Assembly (NCBI GenBank): GCA_024638815.1
Contig: JAHEJM010000001.1
Coordinates: 1 to 55,277 of the forward strand
Direction: 5' to 3'
Source of the DNA: Acidimicrobiales bacterium
GTDB lineage: Bacteria > Actinomycetota > Acidimicrobiia > Acidimicrobiales > SZUA-35
DNA length: 55,277 nt
The notes under the pieces were generated by a model. It did no database searches. It had not been told where the DNA came from and saw only the letters and a list, made by a program, of their open reading frames with translations. Each line of letters starts with the position of its first letter. The first letter of the stretch is position 1. Positions 8,856-55,277 of the stretch are shown here, piece by piece. A program made the position numbers and the translations under genes.

Positions 8856-10121
8856 ATGACCGACGGCGGGTTGCCACCACAACCACACAGCGCCAACCTG
8901 ACGCTGATAGAGACCGCTCTCGATGCGGTGCTGGCAACCGAACCCGCCTGCCTTTCTGTGGCCGAACTGCTGGACCGAGCCTGCCGACTACAACGTGTGT
9001 CTGCCCGGATCGACGCGGCACGGGCCGCCACCCTGGCTGCAGCGGACTCCGCCTCCGAAGCGCCGGGCGTGCTACGCGAGCTCGGGTTCCGAACCGCCTC
9101 CCAGGTCGTTGCCGCCGAGACTGGGGCGCCGGCGCGGGAGATCCACTCCACCGCCCGCACCGGGCAATGGCTCGACCAGTTCCCGGTCTTCGCCCAAGCC
9201 GCGGCCGAGGGCGTGTTGACCCTCCGGCATCTGCGGGAGTTGAAGAGCTTGGACAAACCCGACCGGCGAGTCGCCCTCGTCGCCTCACAGCATGAGTTGG
9301 TGGCTGCTGCCAGGGATCATGACTTTGTGGAGTTCACCAACCGGGTCACCGTCTGGTTGATCAACCACACCACCAGCGACGAGGTGACCGAACAAGTCAA
9401 CGAGACCTCATGTACCTGGAACACCAACACCGACGGCTCCATTGATGGCCGGTTCCACCTCGACCCGCTGTCAGCAGTGGCGGTCGGCACCGCGCTCGGT
9501 GATGAGATGCAGCGCCTGTTCCGCCAACAATCCGAAGGCGACAGCAAAGCCGACTCCCCCAACCGGCGCAGGGGTCAAGCCCTCGTGGGCCTGGTTGTGG
9601 GTGGGGCTGAAGCCCCGGGGTCGGCCACCACCACCCCACTGGTCAACCTGGTCATCGGCCAGAAGATCTTGGAGAACCTCCTGGAGCGGTTCGTCGACTC
9701 CGATACCCCGCTCGTAGCGATCGATCGGGATGATCCCGATTACCGGTGTGAACGCATCGATGGGACGCCGATCCACCCCGACGAGTTTGCCGACGGCAAA
9801 CTCGAGGTGGACGTGCGAAGCACGACCACACTCTGGCAGTTTGTGGCCACCGCGGTGTCCGAGTTCGAACGGATCGTGCTCGATGAGAAGTCCAGGGTGA
9901 TCGACATGTCGGTCAAAGCCCGAGGGTTCCCACCGTGGATGAAACGGGCGTTGCTGATCGAAGCCAGAGCCAGATGCCGAATCCGGGGCTGTGATGCGCT
10001 GTATCACTGGCTTCAAGTTGATCATGTTGAACCCCATTCGAAGGGTGGGCCAACCTCGCTTGCCAACGGTCAGATTCTCTGTGATCCGGACAACAAGTGG
10101 AAGCGCGATCTCGTCGCCTGA
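8856..10121 (+). CDS. DUF222 / HNH endonuclease protein (13E12 repeat family)
   Basis: A 421-residue protein with the standard actinobacterial arrangement: helical DUF222 region (about residues 30-300, including LDRACRLQRVSARIDAARA and LRELGFRTASQVVA) and a C-terminal HNH nuclease motif RCRIRGCDALYHW, QVDHVEPHSKGGPTSLANG, ILCDPDNKWK. The HNH residues (DH...N...N/K) look intact. Family knowledge: these genes are multicopy, vary between strains and are often treated as mobile-element-associated, but their DNA target is unknown. Start ATG 8856 is set by the promoter just upstream; there is only AGGG as a weak Shine-Dalgarno. It lies directly beside an IS remnant, consistent with an accessory locus. 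Confidence 0.85.
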   Translation: MTDGGLPPQPHSANLTLIETALDAVLATEPACLSVAELLDRACRLQRVSARIDAARAATLAAADSASEAPGVLRELGFRTASQVVAAETGAPAREIHSTARTGQWLDQFPVFAQAAAEGVLTLRHLRELKSLDKPDRRVALVASQHELVAAARDHDFVEFTNRVTVWLINHTTSDEVTEQVNETSCTWNTNTDGSIDGRFHLDPLSAVAVGTALGDEMQRLFRQQSEGDSKADSPNRRRGQALVGLVVGGAEAPGSATTTPLVNLVIGQKILENLLERFVDSDTPLVAIDRDDPDYRCERIDGTPIHPDEFADGKLEVDVRSTTTLWQFVATAVSEFERIVLDEKSRVIDMSVKARGFPPWMKRALLIEARARCRIRGCDALYHWLQVDHVEPHSKGGPTSLANGQILCDPDNKWKRDLVA

Positions 10122-10176: not shown

Positions 10177-10337
10177 CCAGGCCTGGGCCGGGCCCCGGGA
10201 ACGGCATGATCCTAGGCCTGGACGACCCTCGCTGACCACACCCTCCATGTCGCGACTGACCCGAAATCCGAACCAGCCGACCACCAAACCCTTGGAACCA
10301 ATCACCTGGGCCCGGCAAGAACCCTGGCGGTCGGTCG

Positions 10338-54434: not shown

Positions 54435-54782
54435 TCAGATGCGCCGGCTGATGAAGGTTCGGCGCAGGTGCCGCCGATCCTCTTCCGAGGTGCCGCCCCA
54501 CACACCGGAGTCCTGATTGCTGGCCAGAGCGTATTCGAGGCATGGCTCCTGGGACGGGCACGCCATGCACACCGCCTTGGCTTCGGCGATCTGTTCGACG
54601 GCCTGGCCGGTGGTGCCGACGGGAAAGAACAGCTCTGGGCTGGTGTCGCGACAGGCGGCGTCCTGTCGCCACGAGAGATCGGGTTTGCCGCCGCCGGGTT
54701 TTTCGGCCACCCGTTGGGCGATCGTTTCGAAGTGCTCGAATCCGATGGGAGGTACGTACTCCCTTGAACCTACGACTGTCAC
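54435..54782 (-). CDS. whiB1: WhiB1-type Fe-S transcriptional regulator
   Basis: A 115-residue WhiB-family protein. The four cluster-ligating cysteines are Cys44 (AACRDTSPELFFPVG), Cys72, Cys75 and Cys81 (VCMACPSQEPC), followed by the GVWGG turn (93-97) and a basic C-terminus (RRHLRRTFISRR). WhiB1 binds a [4Fe-4S] cluster sensitive to NO and partners the primary sigma factor. The segments ELFFPVG and QDSGVWGG match mycobacterial WhiB1 better than WhiB4, and the convergent pdtaS gene is the same neighbour as in M. tuberculosis (Rv3219/Rv3220c). It has about 35 extra N-terminal residues. Start GTG 54782 with GGGAGG four bases upstream. A long leader region (about 100-150 nt) is likely. Confidence 0.88.
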   Translation of the reverse strand: MTVVGSREYVPPIGFEHFETIAQRVAEKPGGGKPDLSWRQDAACRDTSPELFFPVGTTGQAVEQIAEAKAVCMACPSQEPCLEYALASNQDSGVWGGTSEEDRRHLRRTFISRRI

Positions 54783-54899: not shown

Positions 54900-54933
54900 T
54901 GGCTTACCCTAGACGATTAGTTAGAACTTCGTA

Positions 54934-55046
54934 AAGAGTCTGTCGAACATTCCCTCTATACGCGACAACAACGTTGATGATCTCTCGTCAGTGCATCTCT
55001 GATGCAGATACACGTGGCCCAATCGGGAGCCGGCCGGGGCTCTTTT
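54934..55046 (+). ncRNA. Candidate small RNA divergent from whiB1
   Basis: This plus-strand stretch has no gene. A possible promoter (TTGGCT 54899-54904, 17 nt, TAGAAC 54922-54927) would start a transcript near 54934. It would contain the hairpin TGCATC/GATGCA (54992-54997 with 55001-55006) and end at an intrinsic-terminator-like structure: GAGCC (55027-55031) paired with GGCTC (55038-55042), then TTTT (55043-55046). Predicted size is about 113 nt. No known RNA family was recognised, and the promoter match is only moderate. Confidence 0.3.
55027..55046 (+). terminator. Intrinsic-terminator-like hairpin
   Basis: Five G-C-rich base pairs (GAGCC with GGCTC, loop GGCCGG) followed directly by TTTT on the plus strand. 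No plus-strand gene ends nearby, which is the main argument for an unannotated transcript upstream. Confidence 0.45.
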
Positions 55047-55072: not shown

Positions 55073-55277
55073 GCACTGGTTTCGCGTGGGTGGATTGGAT
55101 GTTCACAATCGGGTTACGTCTCGGCGACGTTTGGTCGGAGGCCAAACTCGGGGCGGCGAGCGCCGTCTCGCCGCACTGGTTTCGTGTGGGTGGATTGGAT
55201 GTTCAGAATCGGGTTACGTCTCGGCGACGTTTGGTCGGAGGCCAAACTCGGGGCGGCGAGCGCCGTCTCGCCGCACT
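55073..55277. repeat. Tandem array of a 100-bp structured repeat (2 full copies, third truncated by the window edge)
   Basis: Copies at 55073-55172 and 55173-55272 differ at two positions only (55085/55185 C/T and 55106/55206 C/G); a third begins at 55273. Each unit contains three perfect inverted repeats: ACGTC/GACGT (55116-55120 with 55126-55130), GTTTGG/CCAAAC (55129-55134 with 55142-55147) and GCGGCGAG/CTCGCCGC (55153-55160 with 55167-55174, across the unit junction). The unit length is not a multiple of three and no coding pattern is visible. A further inverted repeat, CGAAACC/GGTTTCG (55062-55068 with 55078-55084), joins the flank to the first copy. Function unknown. Confidence 0.9.

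Follow-up and report, generated by a model that had tools for sequence, protein, structure and literature searches.

The window analysed here is the whole 55,277-nucleotide stretch (positions 1 to 55,277, forward strand) of contig JAHEJM010000001.1 from an Acidimicrobiales bacterium (assembly GCA_024638815.1, here G000), a metagenome-assembled genome (MAG) of Acidimicrobiia type, 4.7 Mb in 227 contigs. At its right-hand end, near a WhiB gene (54435-54782, PF02467), lies a tandem repeat (55073-55277) whose units belong to a dispersed family of short, non-coding and probably mobile repeats, referred to below as the small element. Tandem Repeats Finder (TRF) assigns the array a period of 100, 2.0 copies, 98% matches and no indels, in agreement with the 100-bp unit of 98% identity described in a first-pass annotation of this DNA. 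Aligned with other copies, unit 1 runs on the forward strand from a CTAG-like 5' end (CTGG) to the next such end (55076-55175; TRF sets the same period at 55073), and unit 2 with the initial bases of unit 3 occupies 55176-55277 (TRF and contig sequence). Between unit 1 and unit 2, mismatches occur at 2 of 100 positions. The array appears to run off the window because the scaffold has 100 Ns at that edge (G000:C145:55278-55377), inside the array. Beyond this gap about 1.2 additional units follow, terminating in ..GCACTAG, and thus the array does continue past the window, as had been proposed, with at least 3.2 units in total. The units directly abut, in contrast to clustered regularly interspaced short palindromic repeats (CRISPR) with their unique spacers, a comparison that had already been dismissed.

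Two hairpins were located in each unit by repeat finding, both on the forward strand. Hairpin 1 (HP1), which is also supported by covariation, reads CGA-C(bulge)-GTTTGGTC-GGA-GGCCAAAC-TCG in unit 1 (55125-55150) and recurs in unit 2 (55225-55250). Hairpin 2 (HP2), GCGGCGAG..CTCGCCGC, lies at 55153-55174 in unit 1, across the TRF unit boundary, and at 55253-55274 in unit 2. The first-pass annotation had counted three perfect hairpins per unit. Among these, HP2 is indeed perfect and spans the unit boundary; the second is perfect over 6 bp (GTTTGG/CCAAAC, 55129-55147), but the 8-bp stem of the family contains one G-T pair in this copy. The third is poorly supported, as the inverted-repeat listing has just CGGCGA/TCGCCG, 40 nt apart, and ACGTC/GACGT, perhaps the pair that was meant, is missing from the family consensus.

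The 205-bp stretch, used as a DNA query, gave 45 matches on many contigs of its own genome, and 79 stretches were fetched around these and further matches (L numbers below denote stretches fetched from this genome or from relatives). A family model of the first 76 positions, built from 47 copies, has 111 own-genome matches at E≤0.001, mostly single copies, and also hits relatives. When the 79 stretches were searched with a profile, 106 hits were obtained, 104 of which start within the stretch. These fall into 88 array entries (75 single, 10 double and 3 triple). This total includes the window array twice, as the gap divides it in two, and also repeats at least one copy on C71, where L013 and L114 overlap. 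The closest unlinked copies share 96% identity across about 120 bp, and their flanks are no more similar than random pairs. A local structured-RNA array and a single replication or segregation site, two of the functions first suggested, are at odds with about 100 dispersed copies in the genome, with the predominance of single entries elsewhere (75/88) and with the lack of a copy at the same place in ten sister genomes. The nearest of the suggestions is a recombination array, if this is taken to mean a mobile element.

The consensus element is about 100-120 bp long, is non-coding, and consists of CTAG-TTTCGCTTGG..GGATGTTCACGATCAAGTCAAGTTTCGGCGAY, HP1, one of several tails, and CTAG. HP1, an 11-bp hairpin, is GTTTGGCC-GGA-GGCCAAAC flanked by the outer pairs CGA/TCG, with a single unpaired base that is usually C or T; it is the conserved core of the element, and the second hairpin after it varies. 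Tail A, the type found in the window, carries HP2 as GGCGAG..CTCGCC and brings the total to about 103 bp; elements with tail B total about 118 bp and those with tail C, which has additional hairpins, about 120 bp, and a short form (tail D) is also present. HP1 was located by script in 73 of the 104 own copies tried, with a GNA loop in 70 of the 73 and GAC or GAT as the preceding triplet in 63. A GNA triloop closed by C-G is known to give very stable DNA mini-hairpins.

Covariation was assessed with a set of 39 distinct HP1 sequences, which represent eight genomes and two genera and were picked by hand from distinct pattern rows in one orientation, not from all rows. In this alignment 97.7% of cells pair, 6 of the 11 pairs have changed on both sides, and there are 45 such cells against 15.1 in shuffles; under half of the cells pair in slid controls. 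The selection pattern fixes ten letters and rows were kept with at least 3/4 free pairs, which left out 5/146 own and 8/166 relatives' matches (both strands), and some relatives' copies appear twice in the analysis, the same assemblies having been entered twice. With a relaxed HP1 pattern, the free S-S pair is complementary in 145/145 listed matches, and at the free Y-R pair 136 matches are Watson-Crick, 7 have G-T and 2 have a mismatch (both tallied by eye). In the consensus fold of 19 type-A copies, 96.5% of cells are paired and 5/27 pairs have changed on both sides. Folding energies give weaker evidence than covariation: compared with shuffles, one unit has a modest z of about -2 as RNA and -1.9 and -2.7 as the two DNA strands, and single elements range from -1.9 to -3.4. 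The compensatory changes across genomes, a check that had been called for, indicate that the HP1 structure is under constraint, as DNA or RNA, in line with the selection for structure that was initially suggested. What is firm in the structure is HP1 together with the tail hairpins. An older subfamily, with few copies in the own genome (L131, L133, L135, L121), has ..GATCATTCAACATTGCG.. and an HP1 of the form GTTCGGCC-GNN-GGCCGAAC.

Both ends were recognised in 89 copies, with CTAG at both in 27 and at one or both in 74. The last base of the 5' tetranucleotide is G in 83/89 and the first base of the 3' tetranucleotide is C in 84/89. This pattern fits an element G..C inserted at the TA within CTAG, and a four-base (CTAG) target model may also apply. 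CTAG is rare in the window (12 observed, 36.5 expected from trinucleotides). With gene calls from our own codon-score script, the stop codon of a converging downstream gene lies inside the 3' tetranucleotide at 23/88 entries, and the stop of the upstream gene inside the 5' tetranucleotide at 11/88 (10 TAG, 1 TGA), with a twelfth within 5 bp. At three loci both stops are in the element ends: L032 (P450 and FAA-hydrolase-like genes, the FAA match being below the Pfam cut-off), L103 (LysE-like, also below the cut-off, and Fe-ADH) and L113 (Aldedh and EamA). Such convergent pairs would arise if a CTAG common to both stops were duplicated. Among the 81 entries with both neighbours there is no orientation preference (18 sense, 28 antisense, 22 divergent, 13 convergent).

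The distribution of the family among species is patchy. The 76-position model matches 12/41 genomes, with 105 matches in the own genome, 55 in G023, a member of another genus, 8 in G002 and at most 7 in each of nine others, some of these last being single and near threshold. The relaxed HP1 pattern is found in 8/39 family genomes (56, 37, 28, 7, 5, 5, 4 and 3 matches), and its reversed control gives 0 in every genome. In a public genome collection, the exact 21-base HP1 occurs in 17 stretches from three Acidimicrobiia MAGs (14 JAOTYQ, 2 CAMYLA, 1 JAOTVU), in a search that may omit records close to the own genome. Relatives have the two hairpins in common, while the 5' half differs between lineages. 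G023 has tandem copies bounded by CTAG (L079), G013 has 47-bp tandem copies with little beyond HP1 and HP2 (L210), and G003 and G007 have near-minimal copies (L230, L238) at a place interpreted as the intergenic space that separates the genes for ribosomal proteins S8 and L6. At L214/L073 (G003) and L236/L055 (G004), gene-end sequence preceding the hairpins is partly repeated after them. Judging from this arrangement, tandem duplication of the hairpins together with a gene end might be a source of new 5' halves.

At the locus of the window array, a 3.2-kb query found parts of the whiB-GDPD region in 10/11 sister genomes of the genus (G008 had no match). The element is absent from all ten aligned regions, and a sensitive profile search of these gave a best E of 1.5, compared with 1e-19 to 1e-21 for the units of the window. 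Thus the adjacency to whiB reported at first pass is real, but the array is not conserved at that locus, and a whiB regulatory element is ruled out by the ten regions without a copy. Upstream of whiB (54907-54936), a stretch like TAGACGATTNGTTAGAAGTTCGTAAAGAGT is kept in most aligned sister genomes and is perhaps the whiB promoter.

We consider it likely that the family consists of mobile elements of about 100-120 bp that are non-coding and non-autonomous, similar to repetitive extragenic palindromes (REPs) and miniature inverted-repeat transposable elements (MITEs), and moved by an enzyme that reads the hairpins. Insertion would take place at CTAG, most likely with TA or CTAG left at either side of the copy. 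As CTAG is rare and contains TAG, a potential stop codon, copies would land at gene ends with the genes intact. Tandem arrays would be head-to-tail repetitions at the common terminal tetranucleotide, produced either when insertion hits a copy's own end or when copies recombine unequally. Retention of the hairpins would be explained by their being recognised by this enzyme, perhaps in the form of folded single strands of DNA, which is the case in REP and IS200/IS605 systems.

Several observations weigh against this interpretation. No transposase or autonomous copy of the small element was found in the searches made. The sister whiB-GDPD regions are unalignable at the insertion point, leaving no empty target to be read base by base, and empty-site searches with L103 and L032 gave no match across both flanks. 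Copies outside the own genome often lack the CTAG-bounded 5' half. Types B and C yield an RNAalifold consensus fold unlike that of type A, with other long-range pairings, so that any overall fold is tentative. Finally, contigs C91 and C100 of G002 (L290-L292) carry blocks 96-99% identical to own contigs, in which the elements are at the same places as in the own blocks compared, with no movement seen; the length differences examined are a coding deletion, an N gap and one unalignable region, none of them an element. Since most of the genus shows about 65-77% identity in the matches seen, C91 and C100 probably derive from contamination by a close relative of the window's species (contamination of G002 is 8%).

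The ends of the element would also suit a MITE whose parent is a classical DDE insertion sequence, IS5- or IS630-like, with duplication of CTAG or TA and with incidental hairpins. The inner G and C are kept and the outer bases vary, as for TA duplication. IS630 is described as preferring TA in CTAG (Tenzen and Ohtsubo 1991, as cited in PMC2170065), and MITEPsy1 of Pseudomonas syringae is, in the description of PMC3189936, likewise a non-coding element of 100 nt with CTAG as target, duplicating CTAG or YTAA. However, terminal inverted repeats, which set MITEPsy1 apart from the small element, were not detected: 25-nt ends score 4.67 against 4.78 when shuffled, with 1/89 copies above the 95% level. 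The IS630 DDE_3 domain is absent from G000 and G002, with two matches in the element-bearing G023; IS5-type transposases were not searched for. An IS630 MITE is disfavoured by the absence of DDE_3 from G000 together with the lack of inverted ends, and the retention of HP1 by compensatory change is unexpected of incidental hairpins, so that a DDE origin as a whole appears unlikely. As to target duplication itself, CTAG-like sequence is present on both sides and the three convergent gene pairs each keep an end stop, although no empty site was read.

The covarying hairpin, frequent placement at gene 3' ends and the reported action of REPs as RNA elements (PMC3733652) would agree with a structured RNA, terminator or mRNA-stability element that is useful to the host and was amplified for its function. 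Such a role is quite improbable given the position at whiB, not kept in sister species, the lack of orientation preference (22/81 between divergent genes), and the patchiness within one genus. The window also has no Rfam match at the gathering threshold, and at E≤1 four loci gave one chance-level match, elsewhere in L009. That the array is an assembly artefact, with repeat copies wrongly joined at the scaffold gap, might be suspected from its spanning 100 Ns in a MAG of 227 contigs. This is extremely unlikely, as two complete units that differ from one another lie in gap-free sequence, 13/88 own-genome entries hold two or three units, and arrays are found in G023 and G013 too.

As described in PMC3733652 and PMC8266576, REPs are high-copy extragenic palindromes near gene 3' ends with uneven occurrence among species, all of which applies to the small element. 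It differs from them in its longer unit, two hairpins in fixed order and CTAG-like ends. GTAG REPs resemble it further in often supplying a TAG stop and in their bulged hairpin (PMC3733652, PMC8266576), and the small element shares with GTAG REPs and REPINs (paired REPs) an imperfect, bulged palindrome with many extragenic copies. However, no GTAG tag stands at the foot of its palindrome, where GAC or GAT precedes HP1 (63/73), Y1 transposase was found in none of the HP1-bearing genomes, and its arrays are head-to-tail rather than head-to-head dimers. CGTC REPs have, in the account of PMC3733652, no known dedicated enzyme, which is also the case here, and are defined by a CGTC-type tag, an 8-9 bp stem starting with AT pairs and a 4-5 nt loop. 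The small element has no such tag, its stem starts G-T-T and its loop is 3 nt (GNA in 70/73). Thus it is set apart from GTAG REPs by tag and Y1, from CGTC REPs by tag, stem and loop, and from MITEs by the lack of inverted ends. Mycobacterial interspersed repetitive units (MIRUs; PMC12548453) are similarly actinobacterial, short, repetitive, apparently mobile and located at gene boundaries without disruption. Their insertion is described as occurring at start codons, and the repeat as having a coupled open reading frame (ORF), whereas the small element targets CTAG, often a stop, and the hairpins are its conserved part.

Other small non-autonomous repeats of about 100-155 bp are known from pneumococcus (RUP) and Bacillus cereus (bcr1). 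RUP is linked with an IS630 element, and in this the small element differs, as no IS630 gene was found in G000. No description of the family was found in the open-access literature searched. The spread of palindromic repeats without a known enzyme is stated to be an open question for CGTC REPs (PMC3733652). The family offers a clean case, with about 100 copies in a single genome, recognisable ends, a covarying bulged GNA hairpin and no REP-associated tyrosine transposase (RAYT) found in its bearers, and the CTAG target gives a simple reason for repeats at gene ends without harm to genes. Identifying the enzyme would reveal how an orphan palindrome moves.

Among candidate enzymes, the RAYT domain Y1_Tnp (PF01797) is found in 0/8 HP1-bearing genomes and 10/31 others (Fisher p 0.086), and a RAYT-driven REP is not favoured in view of this absence, bearing in mind that the genomes are 81-98% complete and a Y1 gene could be missed. 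The existence of a longer, autonomous copy sharing the left end was rejected too: 72 pattern hits in the own genome (≤3 mismatches) all fall at model-listed places, as compared by eye, with no orphan left end. At L130, where the 5' half stands alone, the downstream ORFs are read as ribosomal proteins L28 and L33, with no transposase. DUF222 (PF02720) was rejected as partner, because it is present in 35/39 family genomes but missing from G002 and G011, both of which bear the element. HNH proteins encoded beside small elements have no PF02720 match, and therefore the PF02720 search says nothing about them.

These HNH proteins belong to an IS-like element that has GATTGGYTCCAAGRGGTTGG as inverted ends and contains an HNH gene (PF01844). 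Four copies of it were seen in the own genome, on C67 (broken), on C183, on C5 and in the window. The window gene (8856-10121, forward strand) encodes a candidate partner, an HNH endonuclease of 421 aa (PF01844 E=1.1e-5; 84% identical to the C183 copy). One end of the element, with one mismatch to GATTGGYTCCAAGRGGTTGG, was found by end search at 10284-10303 on the reverse strand, the opposite end not being recognised in the window. Six ends of the HNH element were recognised in total, and four adjoin the 3' CTAG of a small element (L098 two, L281 one, L282 one), an association that is biased because three of the four copies were found by looking beside small elements. In those three copies an HP1-like hairpin lies directly behind the HNH gene. 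Among the loci scanned, which also took in 29 relatives' loci with DUF222, such a GNA hairpin was seen in the own genome only. Homologues of the HNH protein in the examined loci of relatives are at most 34% identical, and its match to IscB covers the HNH part alone, far below the cut-off. The adjacency may reflect partnership, or merely the use of the same targets by both. It is rather improbable that the HNH-endonuclease element and the small elements work as a single system, in which the HNH protein would move hairpin DNA into CTAG sites; if true, this would be a new kind of palindrome-mobilising system, with neither an HUH nor a DDE transposase. Within the window's HNH gene, an in-frame insert of about 51 bp (9782-9833, forward strand) adds 17 residues relative to two other HNH copies and folds into two hairpins (z -7.3), the first HP1-like (9782-9804, loop GAC) and the second at 9807-9829 (loop GAA). 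This insert is probably a minimal member of the family.
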